From positions 1 through 12,987 of the forward strand of contig JBFMHD010000063.1 of NCBI GenBank assembly GCA_040752395.1: a stretch of DNA of 12,987 nt. The letters are read 5' to 3'. A program made the translations under genes and the position numbers. The notes beneath the pieces were generated by a model. The model saw nothing but the letters and a program-made list of their open reading frames with translations, searched no databases and had not been told where the DNA came from. This document shows, one piece after another, positions 249-12,987 of the stretch; within the stretch, counting starts at the first letter, position 1; each line of letters opens with the position of its first letter. Origin of the DNA: JBFMHD01 sp040752395 [NCBI: Candidatus Hydrogenedentota bacterium]. Lineage in GTDB: Bacteria > JBFMHD01.

Positions 249-366
249 AGGAGTACTCATGAGCGCGTTTGTGCTCTACACAATATATGAAAAACTAAAG
301 ATGATATGTTGGCTTCAGGCTCCGGGCTTCGGCCTACAGCCGGAATACTGCACTAACCCACCTCTG
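249..366 (+). repeat. Modular intergenic repeat, copy A
   Basis: Three blocks occur in the same order and orientation at 2763-2964 (copy B). Block 1 is AGGAGTACTCA (249-259, identical to 2763-2773). Block 2 is 40 bp (269-308 against 2810-2849, 37 identical). Block 3 is 26 bp (316-341 against 2939-2964, 23 identical). In copy A blocks 1 and 2 are 9 bp apart and blocks 2 and 3 are 7 bp apart, with no expansion. The 3' part (311-366) reads as eight consecutive 7-bp units beginning GGCTTCA, GGCTCCG, GGCTTCG. No coding frame or clear RNA fold explains it. Confidence 0.75.
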
Positions 367-488: not shown

Positions 489-2246
489 ATGACAACCTCA
501 GTTGAAAAATGGGTTGAAGAACAGGCTGCTCTTGCAAAACCTGAAAAAATTTACTGGTGTGATGGATCAGAAGAAGGAGCCCATAAACTTATTGAGATAG
601 GGATTAAAGAAGAAAAGATTGAGGGACAACCTGTTTTTACTCAACTTAATAATAATACTTATCCGAACTGTTATTATCATCGAAGTCATCCCACAGACGT
701 GGCACGAACCGAACACCTCACTTATGTCTGCCACCCTGACAGATTAACTACAGGACCTAACAATAACTGGATGGACCCTAAACAAGCTAAAGAATTATTA
801 ACTAAACTATCTGACGGTTGTATGAAGGGAAAGACAATGTATGTTCTGCCTTACATAATGGGGCACCCAGATTCGCCTTATGCTAAAACTTGTATCCAGC
901 TAACAGATATCTCGTATGTTGCCAGCAGTATGGGAATAATGACTCGAATGGGGAAATTTGTTTTAGATAAGATTGGTAACTCTTTTAATTTTGTAAAGGG
1001 GTTTCATTCGGTAGGCGATTTTGATCCGAATAAACGCTTTATTATGCATTTCCCGAATGAAGATTTAGTCTGGAGCATAGGTTCGGGTTATGGCGGCAAT
1101 GCGCTACTTGGCAAAAAATGTTTCTCTTTAAGAATCGCTTCGTATCTCGGGTTAAAAGAAAATTGGCTTGCTGAACATATGGTAATACTCGGTATCCAGG
1201 ATCCTGAGGGTAATATCACTTATGTCACCATCGCGATGCCATCAGCCTCTGGTAAAACTAATCTCGCTATGCTTGAATCTACACTGCCTGGTTATAAAGT
1301 CTGGACCCTCGGTGATGATATCGCCTGGCTTAATATTGGACCTGATGGTAGATTATATGCAATGAATCCTGAAACAGGTTTTTTTGGCGTCGCACCAGGC
1401 ACATCCAGAAAAACTAATCCTAATATGATGAAAACCTTGCTCGCTAATAAATTTTATCCCACTCTTTTTACTAATACCGCATTAAATGCTGATACTAATG
1501 AACCCTGGTGGGAGGGTATGGATGGTCCGATGCCCCTAAATCTTATTGATTGGAAAGGAAACAAATGGGTTAAAGCCGTGGAACCAAAAGCTGCACATCC
1601 TAATTCCCGATTCACTGTCTCTATCCATAATTGTCCAACATTATCTAAAGAATTTGATAACCCACAAGGTGTTCCTATCTCTGCTATAATTTTTGGCAGT
1701 AAAAGAACTCAGATTATACCGCTTGTTGTTGAATCATTCAACTGGCAGAATGGTGTATTTATGGGTGCTCGGCTCGGCTCTGAAACAACAGCAGCTGCTG
1801 CTGGTAAGGTCGGTGTTTTAAGACGAGACCCTATGGCTATGATCCCGTTTTGCGGCTATAATATGGGTGATTACTTCAGACATTGGCTTAATTTCGCTAA
1901 AAAATTGAAACACCCACCAAAAATATTCTCGGTTAACTGGTTTAGAACAAATGAAAAAGGCGAATATCTCTGGCCCGGTTTCGGCGAAAATATTCGCATA
2001 CTGAAATGGATCATTGATAGAGTGAATAATAAAGTTGGAGCCAATGAGATACCGCTTGGTTTCATTCCAAGGTTTGAAGATTTAAATTTAGAAGGTCTAA
2101 AAATAAAAAAAGAAGATTTTGAAGAATTATTTAAGTTTAAGAAAAACAAGTGGGATGATGAAATCTCAGATATCCATAAATTTTTCTCACAGTTTGAAGA
2201 TAGACTACCACACGAACTGTATGATGAACTGCAATTCAGACACTAA
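489..2246 (+). CDS. pckG: Phosphoenolpyruvate carboxykinase (GTP)
   Basis: Catalyses oxaloacetate + GTP to PEP + CO2 + GDP in the cytoplasm, the entry step of gluconeogenesis; it can run in the carboxylating direction in some anaerobes. It has 585 residues, slightly short of the usual 590-620 for the GTP-dependent family. Visible family features are the substrate-loop arginine in DVAR (R73), YGGNALLGKKCF (201-212), the P-loop PSASGKTN (251-258), GDDIAWL with the metal-binding aspartates (275-281), the ETGFFGVAPGTS stretch, and NWFR followed by FGENIR near the C-terminus. The P-loop has Ser254 where the GTP family normally has a hyper-reactive Cys (PSACGKTN). The start is fixed by an AGGAGA site 6 nt upstream. 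It appears monocistronic, with its own promoter and about 830 bp of non-coding DNA after it. The family call is secure because the ATP-type enzyme has a different P-loop. Confidence 0.97.
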   Translation: MTTSVEKWVEEQAALAKPEKIYWCDGSEEGAHKLIEIGIKEEKIEGQPVFTQLNNNTYPNCYYHRSHPTDVARTEHLTYVCHPDRLTTGPNNNWMDPKQAKELLTKLSDGCMKGKTMYVLPYIMGHPDSPYAKTCIQLTDISYVASSMGIMTRMGKFVLDKIGNSFNFVKGFHSVGDFDPNKRFIMHFPNEDLVWSIGSGYGGNALLGKKCFSLRIASYLGLKENWLAEHMVILGIQDPEGNITYVTIAMPSASGKTNLAMLESTLPGYKVWTLGDDIAWLNIGPDGRLYAMNPETGFFGVAPGTSRKTNPNMMKTLLANKFYPTLFTNTALNADTNEPWWEGMDGPMPLNLIDWKGNKWVKAVEPKAAHPNSRFTVSIHNCPTLSKEFDNPQGVPISAIIFGSKRTQIIPLVVESFNWQNGVFMGARLGSETTAAAAGKVGVLRRDPMAMIPFCGYNMGDYFRHWLNFAKKLKHPPKIFSVNWFRTNEKGEYLWPGFGENIRILKWIIDRVNNKVGANEIPLGFIPRFEDLNLEGLKIKKEDFEELFKFKKNKWDDEISDIHKFFSQFEDRLPHELYDELQFRH

Positions 2247-2762: not shown

Positions 2763-2772
2763 AGGAGTACTC

Positions 2773-2812
2773 AACTATTGGGTTATTGGGTTTTTGGGTT
2801 TTTGGGTTTTTG
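2773..2812. repeat. 8-bp tandem array (GGTTTTTG)
   Basis: Five units in exact 8-bp register: AACTATTG, GGTTATTG, then three identical GGTTTTTG. It lies between blocks 1 and 2 of copy B, where copy A has only 9 bp. Confidence 0.85.
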
Positions 2813-2853
2813 CGCTCTACACAAAGTATGAAAAACTAAAGATGATATGAAAA

Positions 2854-2888
2854 GAGTCGTGAGTCGTGAGTCGCAAGTCGTGAGTCAA
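2854..2888. repeat. 7-bp tandem array (GAGTCGT)
   Basis: Five 7-bp units: GAGTCGT twice, then GAGTCGC, AAGTCGT and GAGTCAA. Three bases separate it from the next heptad tract. The core GAGTC is the reverse complement of the GACTC core of the following tract, so the two arrays could pair as an imperfect long stem in RNA or single-stranded DNA. Confidence 0.85.
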
Positions 2889-2891
2889 AAC

Positions 2892-3030
2892 AGGACTCAG
2901 GACTCGAGACTCAAGACTCGAGACTCAAGACTTTTCAGCAGGCTCTGGGCTTCGGGCTCCAGCCAGCTGTAGTCCGTAGCCTGTACCCTGTCCTGATACC
3001 TCTCACTTCTCACTTTTTACTTCTTACTTC
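2892..3030. repeat. Long drifting heptad tract
   Basis: About twenty 7-bp units run without loss of phase up to the DUF433 gene region. Units change gradually: AGGACTC (twice), GAGACTC and AAGACTC alternating, then GGCTCTG, GGCTTCG, GGCTCCA, then GTAGTCC, GTAGCCT, GTACCCT, and finally CACTTCT, CACTTTT, TACTTCT, TACTTCG. Neighbouring units usually differ by one to three bases while the ends of the tract share little. It contains block 3 of the modular repeat. No protein reading explains the period. Confidence 0.8.
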
Positions 3031-3075: not shown

Positions 3076-3306
3076 ATGTTTGAAAGAATATCTATCGATT
3101 CATCTGTATGTCACGGTCAAGCATGTATCAAAGGAACTCGGATACCTGTGCATCAAATTGTCGCTATGCTTGCCAATGGCGATAGCATTGAAGATTTGCT
3201 TAATGAGTATCCGAATATCAGCAGAGAAGATGTGTTGGATTGTCTTGCTTATGCAAGCAAATTAGCTGAAGAAGAAATTACACCGATAGAAGAATTAGCT
3301 CAATGA
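3076..3306 (+). CDS. DUF433 family antitoxin-like protein
   Basis: 76 residues, typical for the family. The N-terminal part carries the signature RISIDSSVCHGQACIKGTR (4-22), matching 'ItiDpxvcgGkPcIrGTRIpV', followed by a helix-turn-helix-like part: IVAMLANGDSIEDLLNEYP, then ISREDVLDCLAYA. In the family this is the DNA-binding antitoxin partner of DUF5615 PIN-like toxins. Here that partner follows with an ATGA overlap but is severely truncated. It could therefore be an orphan antitoxin or a free regulator. The start is chosen on the GAGGAGG site. The heptad tract fills the region where its promoter would be expected, so transcription may begin upstream of the repeats. Confidence 0.88.
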   Translation: MFERISIDSSVCHGQACIKGTRIPVHQIVAMLANGDSIEDLLNEYPNISREDVLDCLAYASKLAEEEITPIEELAQ

Positions 3307-3413: not shown

Positions 3414-3545
3414 TTGTTTAACAAGTTTCGGTTACACTTTAGTCGCCGAAGTGGAAAACTGAATAACGTAAAAACCAGAACCATCCCGGTTTTTTTATTT
3501 ATTTTCTTTATGGTAATGGGGTCGGTAGGGATGATGTTTGCTGCT
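3414..3545 (+). other. Signal peptide of the giant protein
   Basis: A basic n-region of 23 residues (with R11-R12, K15, K20, R22) is followed by a hydrophobic core, I24 to F42, and AA at 43-44 before NNA. Cleavage after residue 43 or 44 is likely. The n-region is long but shows no clear Tat motif. The TTG start is preferred because the internal ATGs at 3513 and 3519 fall inside the hydrophobic core. Confidence 0.8.
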
Positions 3546-6500
3546 AATAATGCAACTTTGCCAGGTTCATGGAATGGTTGGAATAATGCTACAGGTCAGA
3601 CACCATGGTCGTTTGTTGGTCAGGGTAGTGATAACTGGTTTACTCTTTATCATGTTCCTTCCTGGGGTTTGGTTGAAGATAATTCATATGAGTGGAAAAT
3701 ATATCATTATGACTGGGGATGGAAAGGTGAAGGCTGGGCTGTTGGTATTATAACCCAGGCGAGTGGGGTTTCCGAGTATCTTGATATGAATGGAAATACG
3801 GCTAATAATACAATAACGTTTGGAGACCCGGGTTGGTACTGGTTTTATTACAATGGTGATGGTGAGGATATATGGATTTGTCCTGGTAGAGTAAGAACTG
3901 ATGGTTCCAACTGGAGTAATGCAACAGATGAACGTATAAAAGAATGGCCAACTGCATCTCTTATGGGGGATGATGTGAACACAAATGATACTTTTTATCT
4001 TAATTTTGATACTTATTTTATTTATCTCGGTCTTGGTGACCAGAATCTTGATAATTCTGACTGGTTTGTAGCGCTGGATGTTACTGGTGGCGGTTCTAAT
4101 GTTTCAGATGCCTGGAATGGCACGTATACTTTTCCTGATGGTTTTTATGCAGATTATATGCTTGAAGTTGAGAATGCTAATCCTGCTGCTGTGGCAACTT
4201 ATTCTGCTAGTTCATGGGATGACCCTGCGGATGGTACCAAAATTACTCGGGACTACTATACTATAGGCTCTAATGGGTTCAGTGAGGTTGTGATAAAATG
4301 GTCTGATATAGGAGGCAAACCTGATACGTTTTCTGTTATAGCCTGGGTCCAGTGGGAAGCTGAACAAAAGTTGAACTCAAGTTTTCCTACATCAAATTTA
4401 TCAAACGGTGTTATTCCTGCAAGATTTGTATCATATTATTTTTTCTCTGGTCAGATAGACGACTCAGGTGTTGCATATTGCGACACATCAATAAGACAAA
4501 CCGGGGATTTGATTATAGCAGAATTCAACCCTGATGACGATATGACCGCATATCCCCAAGCAGAATGGTTTGAGATATATAACCCTACCAACAGGTCAAT
4601 AGATTTAAAAAACTGGTGTATTATGGATGGTGATGGTGCTGAAGCATATATAGCAACAGTACCTACAACTTTACCACCTGGTGGTCATGCTCTTGTTTAT
4701 GCAGACGCAACTGCTGAATACCCGGGATATCAGCAGGAATCAGATACTACCGGTGATTTGAATAGGAACGGGTTTATAGATGTTTATGTTTTGGCTGATT
4801 TAATGACCACTACAGATGAAGATGTTTTTCTTTTAAATTATAATACAGTTCAAAGTGAAGATTCAACTGTAGATTTTGTGGTATATACAAATAACGATGC
4901 TACTAATAGCATGGATGATATGGACGACGCGTTTGATTATGGACAATGGTGCACAGGGTTAAACGCGGAAGCAAATGCTGTTGGTGATATAGACAACATC
5001 GATGGTGCTGCAAACGGGTCGTTTTATCGTAAGTTTGATTCCTATGGTTATCTGGATGAAAACAGTAAATACGACTGGGTACAGAACACCTCAAGCGGGA
5101 ACAGGACCGTAGGATATCATAACTCGTCACCTACTTCTATCACCAATGTTAAAATATACGACTCAACTTTTAGTTCTGAAATAAGTACTACTAACGCTAA
5201 TGAAAATGTGGGTATAGAGGTAAATGCTACAGACAGGTTTTCTTCATCAAGAGATTTCACTTCTGTTAACGTTTATGTTTATGACGGTAATGGTAGTGAC
5301 ACGGGTGATACCCTGGGAATACTCCAGATACAATTAAGAGAGACCGCAAACAACTCAGGTATTTTCCGTGGATATGTTTATCTTTCAAACTCGGCGAGCA
5401 ATTATGAAGCAGGTGTTCTTTATGTAACAGCAAGTGATTCAGTAAAAATATTCGCGATTGCAGATACAACAAAATGGGACGATGTAAAAATAACAGGCGC
5501 AGATGTTACTAAACCATCAATTACAGTGAACGACAGTTATTATGTGATGAAATCATCTGATTGCCCAATAGATGTAGATTTTGCTGATGACATTGATTTA
5601 TCAAAATATGCCTATTATATAAGCGGTGTTTCTGGCTCGTTTGGCGAGAAGAGTATATCAGGTAGTTCTTATACTGGTTTTGTAAGTATACCCGAGGCCT
5701 TTAATGCTATGACAAATAACGAGGTTTATAATGTGACCATAGGGTGTACTGATGCTTCTGGTAACGACACCTGGTGGTCTAATGCTGTGACTGTAAAAAA
5801 GGAGTTATGGTCAGCTGATGGGTCATGTACTGATTTTACAGCTCAGGGTGACGAGTTTATGGACTCGGATTATGGTGCGAGTCTATCACGTGGGTTCTAT
5901 TTCACCTGGGATGATACGTATTTCTACGTGCTCTGGGAAGGAAACAATTTGAATAATGATGATGTATTCATAGCGTTTGATACAGGTCCTGGCAGGAGTC
6001 AAGGTGCTACTAATGAATTTTATGAAGGTCAATGGTATTCCAATAGTAACTATAGACCAGATGTTGCTATTGTATTTTTTGATACCAATACTATTAACCG
6101 TTATTATAATTCTGGCTCAGCACTTACTTTAGATGCCAATTATGCGAGTTCATGGTTACACGACGATGGAACCGCATCTGATTTGACTTCTGAACTTCGG
6201 GTTCCACGATATTATATTCAGGGGTATAATTATTCGAGGTCAGATTCTATTGGTATTTTTGCATGGATTGGAGAAAACAATAATGCAAGCGGGCCTGGGG
6301 ACGACGTTTATGCAACATGGCCACGTACAAACGAGGACCCAGGAATCGGGCCTTTTTATTTCCATAACTGCATATTGTTTGAGAACACTTATGATACACA
6401 GGCACCAGACTCGTATCTACATACAAGGTTCAAAGTCTCGGCTGATACATCGGCACCTTATCAGAACACACCGTTCAATTTAAGGATCACAGCGCTTGAC

Positions 6501-9500
6501 AAGCGTGGTGATACAGATGCAGGTTACAACCAGGCACGAGGCGAAGTATTGATAGAAGTTTCAAGTGGCGGTATTTTTCCGACAACTACAACCGATACCT
6601 TTACAAACGGTTTTTTAATCCAGCAGGTGACTGTTGATGCGACTGGCAATGTTACTATCACGGTTCGTGACGCTAATGTAAATGTTACCCAGGGCGCTAT
6701 TAATCCACAGATATATGGAACTATTAGTTTAACATTTACAGCAGTCAACAACGCACCGTACGCAAGCAATCTATATCCCGGGACAGGGGTCTATCAGAAC
6801 ACTCGAAACCCGTTATTATCATGGACATTTAGTGATTCAGACCCATATGATACAGTTGGTTATGGGTTTCATCTCCAGGTCTCGACTACTAATAATTTTT
6901 TAAGCCCATATTATGAAGCATATTATACTGATACAACTGCGAGTTCGCATCAGGTCTCGACCAATCTTAACTACATGACACCTTACTGGTGGCGGGTTCG
7001 ATTAATTGATAACCAGCCAGAAACAGGTAGCTGGAGTAATGGTAATGACTCATTTGTGGTTCAGCGAATAGTTCTTGATGGTAATTCAGACGACTGGGAT
7101 GCAGGTACACCAGGCAGCTCTAATAACTCTTCAGTAGTAGATGACCAGTTCTGGGTCTGGACAGATGTTACCGGGGATGAAAGAACAGCTGGCCCTAATT
7201 CTGACGATAATTATGATATAAAGTACATGAAAATAGTTGGTGATACTAAATATTTATATTTTTATTTTGAATTTACAGATATTACAGAAAACGATTCTGT
7301 TGATATAAGCATAGTTGTTGATACCAATACATCAGGTAATATTTCATGGATAGGTGATGATGCAGGCGAAGATATTAATACTACAACAGCGTTTGATGCT
7401 GAGATGGTGTTAGATTTATCAGTTGACGGAGTTTACTATTTTCGGACAGGAGCATCAAACTGGACATCGCCTGCGATCCCTGATGATGCAGGTGCTCCTA
7501 CAAGCAATAATTGGATCTCCATTTCAAATAACATCGCTGAATTTAAACTACCCTGGAGTTTATTAGGTGTTAATATCTCATCATCACCAGAACTTGGGTT
7601 TGCGGTAATGACTTTTGCAAAAACAGTCAACACCGACCCATCAACAAATGATCATACAATATATATTAGTGATGGTGATGGACTTGATATAGTTCATCCA
7701 GGACCAGCAGAGGTATCAGATAATGTCGAATATGATAATACCTGGAATGTTGATTTATATGACCAGCGGCTTGAGTTTTATTTCAGTGTTAAATTTATGA
7801 GTGATGGCAGCGTGGATTATAATTTAAACCCACCACAAACACCAGATGCTGTTGACCCAGAAGACCACGGTAAAACCACAGATACTACACCACTTATCCA
7901 GTGGAGCTCTGTTTCTGACCCTGATAATGATACTGTTACTTTCTATCAATTTCAGCTTAGCGACAACCCGGGATTCACTGATGGGCTTATCATAACTCAT
8001 GTTATTGATACAACTGTTAAATCGAGCATAACGAGTTATCAGGTTGATTCCGGTTTAACATCTGGTAACACTTATTTCTGGCGTGTACGTGCTTATGATG
8101 TTCATGGTAGAGCCTCAAGCTGGGGGAGTTATCAGTTCCAGATCGGGAATCTTGGTAGAGCGATAGATGGATTCTCATCTGATTGGAACGAGACCAAGCC
8201 TGCGGATGTTGACCAGTGGCGCATAGAAAACTATGAGTTTATCTTTATAGATGATTATGATGACTCACGTGGTGCAGGCGGCATACCTAAGAACCCGAAA
8301 ACAGCTGATTTAGTTGAAGTACGGGTATATAGCGATAGCGCAAACGACGGTATGCTCTATTTCTTAATGAAGTTTAATAAACTAATTACCACTGACAGTT
8401 ATAACATAATGATAGCAATAGATACAGACCAGGTGAGTGATCAGCAAGTATCATGGATAGGTGATGAGTCAAGGGGGGCTAATTCTGTATGGGTTGATTC
8501 AAATGCTTACTCAGAAGCGCAATATACTATTGGTAGTGTAGGGGATGATTTCTGGGAATACGAAAAGCCGCAGAATGTATGGGACCGACCTGATTATAAT
8601 TCTGTATTTAAGAGCTATATAAATGCAGGAATTCAATCCGGTCAGGAGGTGGACTCGAACAACGTAGAGCTTGCTATCTGTATGAAAGATTTCGGGATTA
8701 GTTTACCTGTGGCTTCTAATTTTAAACTCCGCTTCACAATCGCTACATCATTTTTTGGTACTTCAGGCGACCCTGATGGAGTAGATAAAACAGATGATCA
8801 TTCAAGTGGTATAGATTTGATTGATGGTATGATCCCTGGTACTGGTGACTGGACTACTGATGAAGCACTTACTACTGACTATGCTATAAACTGGTATTTT
8901 ACACTCTTATTCGATAAAACCACAGGGAAGATTTTAGGTGGAGATGCTGATAATGATGGTTCAATATCAACTGGTGAGAACGTTCCTAAACTCAGGATTT
9001 CAGAGGTATATCTATCGCCTACCAATGATACTTTTATTGAGATAGTATGTATAGATGATGGCAACCCATCTGGTGGTGCGAACATCGGTGGTTATTATAT
9101 CAGCAATTATGACGGGACTCCGTACACAATTGCGACTAATACAATAATCAATTCTGAAGAATTTTTTCTATTACATATCGGCCAGGCAGGCACAAACGAG
9201 ACCACCTCAGGCACAGATGCGATCATAGACCAGTACACAGGTACTGGTTATGACCTTGATATTGATTACGAGCAAGTTGCATTAATAAAGCCTGCGAGAG
9301 CCAGCTCACCAAAGCATCCCCAGACAATAGTTGATGCAGTGGTCTGGAAAAACGATTCCCAGACAAGTTTTCCATCAGGCGAGTCAGATGATATAGATAC
9401 TATTGTCAGAGCTGGTGAGTGGCGTGATTCTGCGAATCTTTACAACGCTGTAATAATATTCTGGGATGATACCAGTGTTATGTATCGGCCAGGCACGTAT

Positions 9501-12500
9501 GAGGATGCGCATGTTGTATCAGATTGGCGTGTAATGCCACCAGCGACCCCTGGTTCAGGACCTGTCGCAACCATAGAGGTCGATGCTCCAGCATATGCAA
9601 ACTGGGACGTAGCGTTTCCCATTACTGTAAGGTTCAAAGATGCGTTCGGAAACTATGTTGTATTTACAGATACTTTTTACATATCAATCGATGCTTACTC
9701 TATCTCGCCAACCGCATCAAGAATAACAACTGCTGACAATGGTGAGACCACGTTTAATGCTACAGTAACCGGCGGTTCTGGTAACATCCTTCTTACTATA
9801 ACTGTAACATATCAAGGTGTAAGCGGCAGTGACCAGGTAACGCTATCGGATCAGAACAACCCGCCTGAGGTAACAATCGATACTACGCCAGCCGATGGTG
9901 ATACGTATTATGGTGCAATCAAAATTTATTTCACTTTAATAGATGGTTTATCTGATCAATGCACTGCAACCATACATTATTCTGATGACAATGGTTCAAC
10001 ATGGAAAACTCCTACATTAATCTATCAAACAGATACAACAGACTTACAGAGCAGTCCAAGTGGTGTTCAGCATTATGTAGTCTGGGATCTGCTTGCGGAC
10101 TTTGCTTGGGGTACCACACAGAATGATATTAAACTCAGGATAACGCCAACTGATACAGCTGGGAACACTGGATCAGCTGATACCACGCAAGCATTTACAG
10201 TTGCTAACCTTTTATTGCGAAATATAAAAATAAACGAGGTTGCGATGGATGAACCAGTTACTGACTGGTTTGAGTTATACAACAAAGGCTCGGATTCTAT
10301 CACAGTTGCTGGATTTACATTTGATGATGAGGATGCAGCTAATTTATTCTCGATCCCTGATACCTGGCCTGAAATAGGACCTGGTCATTATCTGTTAATC
10401 TATGTTGATGCAGATGGTGTAGGTGATACCAATACTAGTGATAGTGTGACCATATTTTATTCAGGTACAAACACCACCATTGATCTTGCTGTGTCTGAAG
10501 ATGAATTATACGTATTTTATGGCAGGTATGGTCAGTCATCCAGTGTAAGTACTAAAACCGTGATCGATTTTGTGAACTGGTGCAGTGATGGTGCTTATGG
10601 TCCGAATACTGATAGTGATGTTGCAGTGAATGCAGGGATCTGGGATGGTGAGACTTATGTAATATTCGTAGATGACGGCTCTAATTATTCAATCGGTTTG
10701 CTGCCTGATGGTGATGATAATGATACGCCGCCGGATTGGGGATATTTTAGTCCGGTTGACACAACACCAGGTGCAAGAAACCAAGCACCAATTACTGCTG
10801 ATATCAGGATAAACGAGTTTCATCCCGGTGATGATGGTGTACCGAATGATAATTTCGAGGATGTAGGTACTGCAGGTGCACCGCTTGATGGCGAGTGGAT
10901 CGAGCTTTATAATCCAGGCTCAACTGACGTTGATTTAAATGGCTGGCGATTTAAGTCAGGTGACGCTTATCTTAATATTACCACGAGTAACGTTGCTAAC
11001 TCTGATACTACAACACCAGCAGGTAGCGCTGTTATATCAGCTGACGGTTTCCTTGTAGTGTTTCGTGATGGTGATGCTGATTTCAGTCTACTTTGTGAAG
11101 GCCCGGATAGCATAATCCTTCAGAATGGTGCAGGTGATAGTATCTATTCTATTTACTATGGTGCAGGTGAAGGAAACGGTGATGATTGGACAAAGAGTCT
11201 TGCTTGTTTACCTGATGGCTCTTGTACATGGTATGCTACAACATTAATTACACGGGGTTATACTAACGAGAAATTATTGTATATAGAAGATGTGGCCGAT
11301 CCAACTCCAGGAACCAATACTACAACTATTACAATAAAGATAGTTGATATCCTTGGGAACGTCGATGTAAACAATAATTCTGATAGTTTCACGCTTCATG
11401 CAGATAACAGCGGTACGTTTCCTGCCTCGGTTCTATCAGGTTATTATATAAGTGGTGGTAATGCGAACTGGATTCGTGTAAGGGTTACGGCAGGCACTGT
11501 TCAGATTATTCTTTATGATTATGCGCTCCCGGAAACCGTAACCCTATCGCTTTCTGACCCGGCTCCATTAATGACATATTCTGATACAGAGGCTGTATAT
11601 TTCGCATCGGTTGATGGTTCTGGTACTGCAACGATTACGCCATCGAGTATCTGCGTTGGTGATACCTCAACATTTACAATCACGTATTATGCGAACGGTA
11701 ATTTAAATGGTGGTACTGTAACGGTCTATTTCCCGAATGATTTCTCCAACCCAAATATCACAAACCCTTCAGAGACAGGGTTTATTACAATTACTTCATC
11801 AGGTAGTATTTCAGATAGTGAGATAATAAATACTGATACACTTGTTATTTCAATCTCTACACTTGGTGTTGGTGGCTGGATACAGATAGTATATGGTGAT
11901 AACACAAGAGGTGCGCAGGCTGATACTGAGTCAGGGATATATACTTTTACTATTTGTTCTCAGGGTAGTGGTGGTACGCTTTCAGGCATCGGTTCCAGCC
12001 CATGGGTCTCTGTAACAGAGCGGGTTGTAATAAACGAATATTTACCTGACCCGGTCCCTGGGTTTGACCATGATGGTGGTGGTGAAGCAGAGCCTGGGGA
12101 CGAGTTCATAGAAATCCATAATACGAGTGATGATACGATTAATTTAGGTGGCTGGCGGATCACAGATGATGAGGCTTATACTGCCGGTTGTATCTTGGGG
12201 GGTGAGTTGCCACCAAGGGGTTTCTTTGTTCTTTATGGTGATAATGATACACGAGCATTTTATTCAGATGGCAGCATATATAAGAGTGGTGTAGGTAGCG
12301 GCGCACCAAGTTTAGCTAATACCGGTGATGTAATATTTCTTTTTGATAATAATAATGAGACAGTTGATTATCAATCATACACCAGTGCAACTGATAACCG
12401 GAGTTATCAGCGGAAATATGATGGGTATACAACTTTTATCAGTGCTTTACCGAGGCCAGGAGATACTGATTCTATTTGTATCTGGGATTCTGGTCCTGCG

Positions 12501-12987
12501 AATGCGCGTATCCGCATAACAACGCCTGCGAGTGTTAATAGTGGTGAAGCTTTTTCAAGTATCATCGCGGTCTGGGATGCGAATGATGATACTATCACAG
12601 AGATTGCTGCAGGCTCGGTTTCGCTTTCTACTGATAAAGGCACAATCAGTCCAACGAGTGTATCATTAACGAATGGTGTCTGGTCAGGTAACCTCACGAT
12701 AACGTATTCTTTAACAGATTCAGTAACAATCACTGGAGTTTACGAGGTCACGACTCGTGGTACATCTGCTCTTACTGTTATTGCACCAACCAATACTGCG
12801 CCGTATGATACTATCTTTATACCGATTGATGGCGAGACGTATGGTGCACAGGTTCGGATCACTGTCCAGATAATGGATAATGATGTTGAAGCCTGTACTC
12901 TTACGATCCAGTATTCTTGTTATGCTACAGGCACTAATACCTGGTATAACTGCACACTTGGTACAGGGTCAGATACTACTGATTCGC
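3414..12987 (+). CDS. Giant secreted multidomain protein with lamin tail, CBM9-like and Ig-like modules (partial, no stop in window)
   Basis: The frame starts at TTG 3414 behind AAAGGAGA (6-nt gap) and stays open for 3191 codons to the window edge. Residues 1-44 are a signal peptide. Modules in order: N-terminal sandwich 45-162; CBM9-like 163-353; LTD 364-572; Ig-like with an LRETANNSGIFRG motif 574-686; Ig-like to 795; CBM9-like 797-1003; Ig-like 1004-1111; FN3-like 1112-1218; CBM9-like 1219-1463; FN3-like 1472-1580; CBM9-like 1583-1842; EF-hand loop 1844-1855; LTD 1859-2049; Ig-like 2053-2263; LTDs 2270-2459 and 2463-2635; Ig-like to 2870; LTD 2871-3020; Ig-like to the edge. No catalytic motif is visible. 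It is rich in Asp, Asn, Ser, Thr, Gly and Tyr. It is probably exported as a surface adhesin or scaffold; the anchoring end is not seen. No frameshift was found by reading every codon. Module borders are approximate and assigned by eye. Confidence 0.93.
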   Translation, partial: MFNKFRLHFSRRSGKLNNVKTRTIPVFLFIFFMVMGSVGMMFAANNATLPGSWNGWNNATGQTPWSFVGQGSDNWFTLYHVPSWGLVEDNSYEWKIYHYDWGWKGEGWAVGIITQASGVSEYLDMNGNTANNTITFGDPGWYWFYYNGDGEDIWICPGRVRTDGSNWSNATDERIKEWPTASLMGDDVNTNDTFYLNFDTYFIYLGLGDQNLDNSDWFVALDVTGGGSNVSDAWNGTYTFPDGFYADYMLEVENANPAAVATYSASSWDDPADGTKITRDYYTIGSNGFSEVVIKWSDIGGKPDTFSVIAWVQWEAEQKLNSSFPTSNLSNGVIPARFVSYYFFSGQIDDSGVAYCDTSIRQTGDLIIAEFNPDDDMTAYPQAEWFEIYNPTNRSIDLKNWCIMDGDGAEAYIATVPTTLPPGGHALVYADATAEYPGYQQESDTTGDLNRNGFIDVYVLADLMTTTDEDVFLLNYNTVQSEDSTVDFVVYTNNDATNSMDDMDDAFDYGQWCTGLNAEANAVGDIDNIDGAANGSFYRKFDSYGYLDENSKYDWVQNTSSGNRTVGYHNSSPTSITNVKIYDSTFSSEISTTNANENVGIEVNATDRFSSSRDFTSVNVYVYDGNGSDTGDTLGILQIQLRETANNSGIFRGYVYLSNSASNYEAGVLYVTASDSVKIFAIADTTKWDDVKITGADVTKPSITVNDSYYVMKSSDCPIDVDFADDIDLSKYAYYISGVSGSFGEKSISGSSYTGFVSIPEAFNAMTNNEVYNVTIGCTDASGNDTWWSNAVTVKKELWSADGSCTDFTAQGDEFMDSDYGASLSRGFYFTWDDTYFYVLWEGNNLNNDDVFIAFDTGPGRSQGATNEFYEGQWYSNSNYRPDVAIVFFDTNTINRYYNSGSALTLDANYASSWLHDDGTASDLTSELRVPRYYIQGYNYSRSDSIGIFAWIGENNNASGPGDDVYATWPRTNEDPGIGPFYFHNCILFENTYDTQAPDSYLHTRFKVSADTSAPYQNTPFNLRITALDKRGDTDAGYNQARGEVLIEVSSGGIFPTTTTDTFTNGFLIQQVTVDATGNVTITVRDANVNVTQGAINPQIYGTISLTFTAVNNAPYASNLYPGTGVYQNTRNPLLSWTFSDSDPYDTVGYGFHLQVSTTNNFLSPYYEAYYTDTTASSHQVSTNLNYMTPYWWRVRLIDNQPETGSWSNGNDSFVVQRIVLDGNSDDWDAGTPGSSNNSSVVDDQFWVWTDVTGDERTAGPNSDDNYDIKYMKIVGDTKYLYFYFEFTDITENDSVDISIVVDTNTSGNISWIGDDAGEDINTTTAFDAEMVLDLSVDGVYYFRTGASNWTSPAIPDDAGAPTSNNWISISNNIAEFKLPWSLLGVNISSSPELGFAVMTFAKTVNTDPSTNDHTIYISDGDGLDIVHPGPAEVSDNVEYDNTWNVDLYDQRLEFYFSVKFMSDGSVDYNLNPPQTPDAVDPEDHGKTTDTTPLIQWSSVSDPDNDTVTFYQFQLSDNPGFTDGLIITHVIDTTVKSSITSYQVDSGLTSGNTYFWRVRAYDVHGRASSWGSYQFQIGNLGRAIDGFSSDWNETKPADVDQWRIENYEFIFIDDYDDSRGAGGIPKNPKTADLVEVRVYSDSANDGMLYFLMKFNKLITTDSYNIMIAIDTDQVSDQQVSWIGDESRGANSVWVDSNAYSEAQYTIGSVGDDFWEYEKPQNVWDRPDYNSVFKSYINAGIQSGQEVDSNNVELAICMKDFGISLPVASNFKLRFTIATSFFGTSGDPDGVDKTDDHSSGIDLIDGMIPGTGDWTTDEALTTDYAINWYFTLLFDKTTGKILGGDADNDGSISTGENVPKLRISEVYLSPTNDTFIEIVCIDDGNPSGGANIGGYYISNYDGTPYTIATNTIINSEEFFLLHIGQAGTNETTSGTDAIIDQYTGTGYDLDIDYEQVALIKPARASSPKHPQTIVDAVVWKNDSQTSFPSGESDDIDTIVRAGEWRDSANLYNAVIIFWDDTSVMYRPGTYEDAHVVSDWRVMPPATPGSGPVATIEVDAPAYANWDVAFPITVRFKDAFGNYVVFTDTFYISIDAYSISPTASRITTADNGETTFNATVTGGSGNILLTITVTYQGVSGSDQVTLSDQNNPPEVTIDTTPADGDTYYGAIKIYFTLIDGLSDQCTATIHYSDDNGSTWKTPTLIYQTDTTDLQSSPSGVQHYVVWDLLADFAWGTTQNDIKLRITPTDTAGNTGSADTTQAFTVANLLLRNIKINEVAMDEPVTDWFELYNKGSDSITVAGFTFDDEDAANLFSIPDTWPEIGPGHYLLIYVDADGVGDTNTSDSVTIFYSGTNTTIDLAVSEDELYVFYGRYGQSSSVSTKTVIDFVNWCSDGAYGPNTDSDVAVNAGIWDGETYVIFVDDGSNYSIGLLPDGDDNDTPPDWGYFSPVDTTPGARNQAPITADIRINEFHPGDDGVPNDNFEDVGTAGAPLDGEWIELYNPGSTDVDLNGWRFKSGDAYLNITTSNVANSDTTTPAGSAVISADGFLVVFRDGDADFSLLCEGPDSIILQNGAGDSIYSIYYGAGEGNGDDWTKSLACLPDGSCTWYATTLITRGYTNEKLLYIEDVADPTPGTNTTTITIKIVDILGNVDVNNNSDSFTLHADNSGTFPASVLSGYYISGGNANWIRVRVTAGTVQIILYDYALPETVTLSLSDPAPLMTYSDTEAVYFASVDGSGTATITPSSICVGDTSTFTITYYANGNLNGGTVTVYFPNDFSNPNITNPSETGFITITSSGSISDSEIINTDTLVISISTLGVGGWIQIVYGDNTRGAQADTESGIYTFTICSQGSGGTLSGIGSSPWVSVTERVVINEYLPDPVPGFDHDGGGEAEPGDEFIEIHNTSDDTINLGGWRITDDEAYTAGCILGGELPPRGFFVLYGDNDTRAFYSDGSIYKSGVGSGAPSLANTGDVIFLFDNNNETVDYQSYTSATDNRSYQRKYDGYTTFISALPRPGDTDSICIWDSGPANARIRITTPASVNSGEAFSSIIAVWDANDDTITEIAAGSVSLSTDKGTISPTSVSLTNGVWSGNLTITYSLTDSVTITGVYEVTTRGTSALTVIAPTNTAPYDTIFIPIDGETYGAQVRITVQIMDNDVEACTLTIQYSCYATGTNTWYNCTLGTGSDTTDS
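3546..3899 (+). other. N-terminal beta-sandwich module, starch-binding-like
   Basis: Residues 45-162. PGSWNGWNN near the start resembles the 'pGsFNgWd' opening of CBM48/X25-type and SusE-like glucan-binding modules. It is followed by aromatic-rich strands (YEWKIYHYDWGWKGEGW, GWYWFYYNGDGEDIWI). Sugar binding is inferred from this resemblance only. Confidence 0.4.
3900..4472 (+). other. CBM9/DOMON-like module 1
   Basis: Residues 163-353. It opens DGSNWS, then FDTYFIYLGLGDQN, WFVALDV and PDGFYADYMLEV, and later VIKWSDIGGKPDTFSVIAW. This is the strand order typical of the CBM9-like / glucodextranase C-terminal type of sandwich found in cell-surface polysaccharide proteins. Confidence 0.5.
4503..5129 (+). 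other. Lamin tail domain 1
   Basis: Residues 364-572. DLIIAEFNP, AEWFEIYNPTNRSIDLKNW and LPPGGHALVYAD are the classic LTD strands. It carries an insert with a dockerin-like half motif, GDLNRNGFIDVYVLADLM (447-464). Confidence 0.8.
5133..5471 (+). other. Ig-like module with NNSGIFRG motif
   Basis: Residues 574-686. LRETANNSGIFRGYVYLS matches the recurring 'LtEtgpNtGvFrG' strand pair of Ig-like modules in large bacterial surface proteins. It is followed by VTASDSVKIFAIAD, equivalent to the usual 'GDxixaxY' end. Confidence 0.55.
5802..6422 (+). other. CBM9/DOMON-like module 2
   Basis: Residues 797-1003. It opens LWSADGSCTDF and has FYFTWDDTYFYVLWEG, DDVFIAFDTGPG, and later SIGIFAWIGENN. The pattern of 'wDdtYlYv' and 'v.iafDt' follows CBM9-like modules. 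Confidence 0.55.
6747..7067 (+). other. Fibronectin-III-like module 1
   Basis: Residues 1112-1218. NPLLSWTFSDSDPYDTV, then YGFHLQVST, YWWRVRLIDNQ and GSWSNGNDSFVV follow the FN3-like pattern 'P.LsW...D.D...Y.iqvs...yyWRVra.D..g.ws'. A second copy is at 7827-8153. Confidence 0.65.
7068..7802 (+). other. CBM9/DOMON-like module 3
   Basis: Residues 1219-1463. It opens IVLDGNSDDWD, the usual 'i.iDG...DW' start. YDIKYMKIVGDTKYLYFYFEF, SIVVDTN and IAEFKLPWSLLG follow. It directly succeeds FN3-like module 1. Confidence 0.7.
7827..8153 (+). other. Fibronectin-III-like module 2
   Basis: Residues 1472-1580. TPLIQWSSVSDPDNDTV, YQFQLSDNPGF, YFWRVRAYD and SSWGSYQFQI parallel module 1. Each FN3-like module is followed at once by a CBM9-like module, so the pair seems to be a duplicated unit. 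Confidence 0.7.
8160..8939 (+). other. CBM9/DOMON-like module 4
   Basis: Residues 1583-1842. It opens AIDGFSSDWNET, parallel to module 3, followed by DLVEVRVYSDS, MLYFLMKF, IMIAIDTD and SWIGDESRG. It is longer than module 3. Confidence 0.65.
8943..8978 (+). other. EF-hand-type calcium loop
   Basis: Residues 1844-1855, DADNDGSISTGE, fit a 12-residue EF-hand loop: acidic at 1, 3 and 5, Gly at 6, Ile at 8, Glu at 12. It lies exactly between a CBM9-like module and an LTD, a good place for a calcium-stiffened linker. Confidence 0.65.
8988..9560 (+). other. Lamin tail domain 2 (divergent)
   Basis: Residues 1859-2049. LRISEVYLSP, FIEIVCID, IGGYYISNYDG and EEFFLLHIG follow the LTD strand order without the usual 'WiELYN' wording. 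It ends PPATPGSG, like the 'TPG' ends of the other LTDs. Confidence 0.55.
10221..10790 (+). other. Lamin tail domain 3
   Basis: Residues 2270-2459. IKINEVAMDEPVTDWFELYN, ITVAGFTFDD and IGPGHYLLIYVDADG are clear LTD strands. It ends VDTTPGARN. Confidence 0.85.
10800..11318 (+). other. Lamin tail domain 4
   Basis: Residues 2463-2635. DIRINEFHPGDDG, GEWIELYNPGSTDVDLNGW and DGFLVVFRDGD are textbook LTD strands. It ends DPTPGTN. It follows LTD 3 almost without a linker. Confidence 0.88.
12024..12473 (+). other. Lamin tail domain 5
   Basis: Residues 2871-3020. VVINEYLPDPVPG, DEFIEIHNTSDDTINLGGW, LPPRGFFVLYGDN and TGDVIFLFDNNNETVD are clear LTD strands. It ends SALPRPGD. Confidence 0.85.

Follow-up and report, generated by a model that had tools for sequence, protein, structure and literature searches.

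The heptanucleotide tract lying in the spacer between the genes of a GTP-type phosphoenolpyruvate carboxykinase (PEPCK) and a DUF433 protein is, in our opinion, best regarded as a composite of separate heptad modules accumulated in one spacer and not as a single drifting array, and a probability of about 0.55 is given to this reading. The sequence shows that every block consists of a few tandem units of a single type of 7-mer, and that two pairs of blocks are inverted copies capable of forming hairpins. The window, that is, the whole stretch of DNA analysed, comprises 12,987 bases, in which neither a tRNA nor an Rfam match at the gathering score was found. It contains the following features.

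1-213: end of an open frame
268-308, plus strand: anchor of the first copy of a repeated element (copy 1), upstream of the PEPCK gene
309-345, plus strand: short GGCT-type heptad block after the copy 1 anchor (lag-7 identity 0.633, 0/2000 shuffles as high)
489-2246, plus strand: PEPCK gene (Pfam PF00821, PF17297), upstream of the tract
2763-2774, plus strand: left end common to both copies of the repeated element, including the palindrome GAGTACTC; it aligns with copy 1 near 249-259
2775-2808, plus strand: 8-bp array TTGGGTTT of about 4 copies (TRF), gapped in the copy alignment, copy 1 having only a few bases here
2809-2849, plus strand: 41-nt anchor of the second copy (copy 2), with 3/41 differences from 268-308
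2850-2936, plus strand: hairpin 1, with a 5' arm of GAGTCGT heptads (2854-2886), a loop near 2887-2893 and a 3' arm of GACTCNN heptads (2894-2932)
2937-2997, plus strand: hairpin 2, with a 5' arm of GGCTYCG heptads and a 3' arm of GTAGCCT/GTACCCT heptads
2997-3030, plus strand: tail of CACTTCT/TACTTCT heptads (TRF period 7 at 3001-3030), unpaired in the predicted fold of 2854-3030
3076-3306, plus strand: DUF433 protein gene (Pfam PF04255), downstream of the tract
3414-12986: large open frame (at least 3191 aa, lamin-tail domains) that continues past the end of the window

The period of seven bases, for which a comparison with shuffled sequence had been set beforehand, was confirmed. Over 2892-3030, identity at lag 7 was 0.644, the mean of 2000 dinucleotide shuffles being 0.255 (sd 0.041) and none of them as high (0/2000); at lag 14 it was 0.536, again reached by 0/2000 shuffles, and no enrichment was seen at lags 6 and 8 over the same interval. 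All seven pieces tested, including 309-345, were enriched at lag 7 (each 0/2000), among them the most degenerate-looking piece, 2933-2996 (0.526), and the tail, 2997-3030 (0.815). The tract sets in near 2850, earlier than 2892, with GAGTCGT units from 2854, and 2854-3030 taken as a whole has a lag-7 identity of 0.647 (0/2000). By TRF, period 7 was called in three stretches, each a separate array (2854-2886, 2894-2932 and 3001-3030), and period 8 in one, with 4.4 copies (2778-2812). The expectation that other spacers would carry further tracts of this kind was borne out, within the window, by one short example, 309-345.

The earlier note had described about twenty units in perfect 7-bp register, changing stepwise from one type to another. 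Since the core registers differ between blocks (position mod 7 is 5 for GAGTC, 3 for GACTC, 1 for GGCT and 2 for the last ACTT run), a perfect register does not hold. Sliding lag-7 identity has peaks of 0.71-0.86 within blocks and dips at four joints, to 0.43 (~2876-2901), 0.14 (~2926-2946), 0.36 (~2956-2976) and 0.43 (~2986-3006). Identity at lag 7 is 95/118 (0.805) within blocks vs 15/52 (0.288) across joints, values that are descriptive and carry no test, since the block limits were drawn post hoc, after viewing the sliding profile. The supposed stepwise drift is mostly a change of block, and two of the changes, GAGTC/GACTC and GGCTTCG/GTAGCCT, are mainly strand inversions, the words being approximate reverse complements according to the predicted folds. 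Compared with heptanucleotide simple repeats of the LSSR/STRR type, the tract shares their tandem 7-nt periodicity, and near-identical units are found within its blocks (0.805) and not over its whole length.

Hairpin 1 is predicted to pair mostly with six pairs and one mismatch per heptad, with an RNA minimum free energy of -44.9 kcal/mol (z -6.30, 0/200 shuffles as stable); folded as DNA, it gives z -4.63 (0/200 shuffles). Its arms are alike at 27/33 positions after reverse complementing vs 21/33 in direct comparison. One heptad position carries G in the 5' arm and T or C, on the other strand, in the 3' arm, and these arm-specific letters suggest that each arm was homogenised on its own. AAAA stands to the left of this hairpin and TTTT to the right. 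Hairpin 2 is modest (RNA minimum free energy -27.2, z -2.27, 5/200 shuffles as stable), its arms being alike at 14/21 positions after reverse complementing vs 7/15 directly, and the CACTTCT tail has no inverted partner block.

Copy 1 of the repeated element, which spans about 249-345, provides the only internal comparison for the history of the tract. At up to 3 mismatches, the 23-nt core of the anchor has no match in the window outside these two copies, each of which is located in a spacer ahead of a same-strand gene (PEPCK and DUF433). After the anchor, 26 nt of the GGCT block (316-341 vs 2939-2964) match with 3 differences and no indel, and the copies diverge beyond. Copy 1 lacks the GAGTC hairpin, which in copy 2 separates the anchor and the GGCT block, and it lacks the 8-mer array, which in copy 2 lies between the GAGTACTC palindrome and the anchor. 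The copy alignment gave no clear copy 1 counterparts of the 3' arm of hairpin 2 and of the tail, and the fold of the copy 1 block (309-351) was no better than that of shuffles (z -0.79, 41/200 as stable). Read most simply, this alignment would mean that copy 2 gained modules; the alternative is that copy 1 lost them. A clean addition of complete hairpins only is not what the copies show, since copy 1 is also without the 3' arm of hairpin 2; hairpin 1, being absent from copy 1, is not a fixed part of the element.

A 36-base anchor pattern was searched for at up to 3 mismatches in three phyla and was found in 0/2 genomes of the phylum of G023, in 0/384 of that of G003 and in 0/294 of that of G021, the 384 and 294 genomes being drawn from larger groups. 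No orthologue of the tract locus was found among the searched genomes of these phyla, so the history of the tract rests on one paralogous pair. The PEPCK of the window has, among the best 80 of 364 loci, at most 73% identity to relatives over near full length and 77% identity to one relative in a partial match of 495 residues; a quick FastTree tree places an Endomicrobia MAG as its sister (end branches 0.23 and 0.27), with a Planctomycetes row equally near by path. Two phage records gave matches of 42 nt, one annotated as neuO with heptanucleotide repeats and the other as a general stress protein, and no plasmid match was found. Two exact 20-mer matches in viral contigs were discarded, there being no heptads in the ~350 bases inspected around them.

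Degenerate heptad arrays are found in other genomes as well. In 1,144,388 bases of PEPCK flanks, which were not chosen for repeats and came from many groups (best 80 of 364 loci of the PEPCK query), 10 period-7 and 6 period-8 arrays were present, the other periods from 4 to 15 giving 0-2 each; arrays with a strong period of 1-3 were dropped throughout by the filter. At E 0.001 or better, DNA resembling the tract was present in 6/47 genomes with PEPCK-query loci and in 12/294 genomes of the phylum of G021. G059 has 24 period-7 arrays in 800 kb, together with 35 period-8 arrays, several of them as inverted pairs, and G118 has 23 period-7 arrays in 800 kb; none was found by the same cut-off in 300 kb of G006. 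The array densities of G059, G118 and G022 are no random sample, since these genomes were picked for matching the tract, and a further 16 period-7 arrays in 218,361 bases of G122, G034, G071 and G050, along with some short loci, were left out of the counts because they too were picked by matches to the tract. Arrays of G059 are not clearly outside open reading frames (mean coding share 0.63 vs 0.895, crude ORFs), and on two contigs of G118 the coding share of arrays is 0.24 and 0.22 vs about 0.9.

Several local observations accompany these counts. On one contig of G059 (C1), 8-bp arrays of the AACCCTAT and GTTCATGT types occur at 35 places, several as inverted pairs, and at 182669-182761 the units change from the outer to the inner end in both arms; the 8-bp array TTGGGTTT of the window (2775-2808), beside the heptads, resembles them. 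One contig of G016 has four period-7 arrays within about 1.3 kb (L081:237-1547). This single 3-kb locus had suggested an array-rich genome, an idea given up after 18 other contigs of G016 (177,555 bases) proved to have no array by the same cut-off. A flanking element shared by the arrays of G059 and G118 was also considered and rejected, several of the 16 matching flank pairs being repeats or the two arms of one locus. Heptads of the CACTTCT type were seen at L182:12685-12749, L188:7258-7364 and L189:18299-18364, where by eye they form a putative hydrophobic protein start with SHFSLLT repeats, signal-peptide-like in appearance; the region of the array near L182:12685 aligns at near-equal length in three genomes (3601, 3600 and 3607 bases).

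Inverted partners are more frequent beside such arrays than in controls. The set used consisted of 58 period-7 arrays, 10 from PEPCK flanks (best 80 of 364 loci) and 48 from three genomes matching the tract, and for 16/58 the array's own flanks contained, within 150 nt, an inverted-complement match scoring at least 11, vs 6.1% of 1030 comparisons with the flanks of other arrays from the same source; complement only gave 8.6%, reverse only 3.4% and direct matches 6.9%. Permuted flanks were exceeded about 2.5- to 4.5-fold at every one of six thresholds (9 to 16). Stems of score 14 or more were predicted for 14/57 period-7 arrays vs 2.8% of 564 neighbouring stretches (spacers and genes mixed) and 0.7% of 285 shuffles, and for 15/41 period-8 arrays vs 3.2% of 408 neighbours and 0/205 shuffles, at least two hairpins being counted twice in these figures, once per arm, as both arms are arrays. 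At a stem threshold of 8 there was little difference for period 7 (40/57 vs 58% and 59%), and 43/57 period-7 arrays elsewhere have no stem of score 14.

The words of which the arrays consist proved to be characteristic of the genome. When consensus heptads were compared up to rotation and strand, the mean nearest-neighbour word distance was 0.62 within G059, 0.61 within G118 and about 1.8 between them, and the mean difference between and within genomes was reached in 0/1000 label shuffles. Within-genome distances were also below those of letter-permuted words (0/300 in each of G059 and G118); the ten PEPCK-flank arrays (best 80 of 364 loci), which come from different genomes, gave 12/300 in the same test. 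No word sharing beyond composition was seen between G059 and G118, 291 and 278 of 300 permutations giving distances as small or smaller, and the idea that the same heptads recur across phyla was rejected on the strength of letter permutation (170 and 90 of 300 for the PEPCK flanks). The five words of the window are nearer the pooled set than permuted words are (7/1000 as close), a closeness given no weight because the pooled set comes mostly from tract-matched genomes and four of the five words make up two inverted pairs.

Two sites could be compared between orthologous genes in three genomes of one genus (G034, G050 and G064).

L182:5453-5506, with the orthologous place in L263 and L264: in-frame heptad array in the ThiL gene, its word varying between species
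L183:9500-9556, L273 and L274: loop of the RnfC gene, occupied by different heptad arrays in two species; the third species has an unrelated insert there

In ThiL, G034 has about four CCGACTT units; at the same place, two ACCACTT units precede a short palindrome in G064, and two such pairs are present in G050. Two of the three species have only about two units per array at this site. In RnfC, G034 has GGAAGAT heptads and G064 CAGAGTT heptads, and the site in G050 is occupied by a different insert without heptads, which presumably resembles a dispersed palindromic repeat. The flanks of the RnfC tract are identical at 620/685 and 550/615 positions between G034 and G064, the tract itself at 33/54. 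The RnfC frame is open in all three rows at the compared site, and the RnfC frames of G034 and G064 and the ThiL frame of G034 are long, uninterrupted and NCBIfam-named. The stretch L183 about 10190-10360, beyond the RnfC gene of G034, is apparently a dispersed repeat, many places similar to it occurring in the three genomes. The proposal that length is held more constant than sequence therefore stands in part: period-7 arrays of many words occur elsewhere and the words differ at two orthologous sites, but length 7 is not fixed at the RnfC site, where the third species is without heptads.

The tract behaves as known heptad repeats and heptad stems do, its stacked inverted arrangement being unusual. 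Tandem 7-mers are familiar as the STRR heptamers of cyanobacteria. Long simple sequence repeats with 7-nt units were reportedly treated by Mrazek et al. in 2007. The LSSR/STRR heptamers, known in scattered lineages, are tandem 7-mers like the tract, which differs from them by having several different words joined in one spacer with blocks that pair as inverted copies. An earlier survey is cited as having found that, in most of its genomes, heptanucleotide repeats outnumber every other category of long simple repeats, polymerase slippage being their proposed cause (PMC4679880, PMC4692102).

The view that known heptamers consist of near-identical units overlooks the tRNA-Leu (UAA) intron of Nostoc, whose P6b stem is built on one of two degenerate heptad motifs, Class II heptads having been inferred to be repeatedly replaced by Class I (PMC4476775). 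P6b and hairpin 1 are both stem-loops with arms of degenerate heptad repeats, and the CGTGAGT units in the 5' arm of hairpin 1 agree with NNTGAGT, the Class II motif (PMC4476775). P6b, however, sits inside a group I intron of tRNA-Leu, whereas the tract lies in a spacer without a tRNA or an Rfam match at the gathering score. In Xanthomonas, GGGAATC heptad arrays are described as convergent pairs, with 70 cases in Xcc and 75 in Xac; like the tract, they place heptad arrays of opposite strands close by and are capable of stem-loops, but the study concerns one word family and its G-quadruplexes, whereas the tract has several words in series at one site (PMC4692102). Direct repeats of TAACTGA are reported from Beggiatoaceae, Cyanobacteria and Bacteroidetes; like the tract, they are intergenic heptads, they are dispersed in the genome, and some regions have other heptamers too (PMC4679880). 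The same study follows one word, related heptamers being rarely repeated in BOGUAY, where the TAACTGA sets stand mostly just upstream of start codons and include one indirect repeat (PMC4679880). In a literature search covering titles and abstract openings, no description of stacked inverted heptad blocks of different words was found.

Several explanations can be weighed against the composite reading. The closest of them supposes slippage and point mutation in place, so that one ancestral heptad array had its neighbouring units copied and its units diverged with distance. Similarity over 2854-3030 indeed falls with distance (0.65, 0.55, 0.45, 0.34, 0.28 and 0.22 at 1 to 6 units apart), simulated slippage with substitution also falls and keeps phase, intermediate-looking units (GTACCCT, TACCTCT) are found in blocks 4 and 5, and slippage with a turnover of words could yield blocks as well. 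Identity, however, drops at the joints and not evenly, the registers differ between blocks, and strand inversion accounts for two of the unit changes; moreover, the mean simulated profiles (one simple model, means of 200 runs) fall more slowly and plateau above background, whereas the tract reaches background within about five to six units. We consider this explanation rather unlikely. The drift with intact phase described in the earlier note, and the selection for spacing considered there, are unsupported here on similar grounds, the register shifting and similarity being at background within ~5 units.

A miniature mobile element of the REP or MITE type, mobilised in trans by a transposase (Y1 or another) and having the heptads as its hairpin arms, seems still less likely. 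As to the dispersed copies that mark REP/REPIN or MITE elements, two 41-nt anchor copies stand within 13 kb, with undefined ends. A folded heptad pair of G050 has many matches (query ~2864-2940) in three genomes of one genus, for which the repeat words alone could suffice. Of 16 other genomes searched, 14 have Y1_Tnp genes, the number being 4-8 in G034, G050, G064, G059 and G118, all five array-bearing, vs 1-3 in six not chosen for arrays; yet there are none in G122, which has the longest array seen, one each in G071 and G016, and five in G022, and the link to a transposase is therefore suggestive but inconsistent, array density being known for few of the 16 genomes. Against a mobile element also stand the lack of any target duplication seen, the rejected flank pairs of G059 and G118, and the negative anchor search in three phyla. 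Least probable, in our opinion, is a functional RNA or DNA element, with the hairpins serving to stop transcription or to form a 5' leader structure for the downstream gene. The very stable hairpin 1, bordered by AAAA and TTTT, and the position of both anchor copies upstream of same-strand genes would agree with such a role, but hairpin 1 is absent from copy 1, there is no Rfam family at the gathering score, and a scan for intrinsic terminators (G+C stem, loop of 3-8, then at least 5 T in 8 bases) called none at the tract, where the T run is only 4.

Under the composite reading, an array would first form by tandem duplication of 7 nt through polymerase slippage; an inverted copy may then arise from a strand switch at a hairpin or from insertion in the other orientation, after which the arms would be homogenised separately, as the heptad position differing between the arms of hairpin 1 suggests. 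Modules from the genome's own set of words would be added at permissive positions, for instance in spacers and protein loops; the hairpins can be explained without assuming a function for them. A wider and more tentative form of this reading, which we regard as possible and less probable than the composite nature of the tract itself, is that heptad arrays are insertable and swappable modules, the current words of a genome being written, often as inverted pairs, into permissive sites, and that the tract of the window is several such insertions stacked. If module insertion is true, a given site would hold the same kind of module in sister species but spell it with another word, as with CCGACTT vs ACCACTT in ThiL and GGAAGAT vs CAGAGTT in RnfC.

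Many bacteria favour a unit length of 7, a preference for which the literature offers polymerase slippage as a guess. Slippage of a single unit does not by itself predict inverted blocks in a stack, words specific to a genome or differing words at a fixed site, and a site-by-site comparison of sister genomes could separate slippage in place from the insertion of ready-made modules. In ThiL and RnfC, the heptads lie within conserved genes and the reading frame is kept, so that such arrays may be a source of new protein loops.
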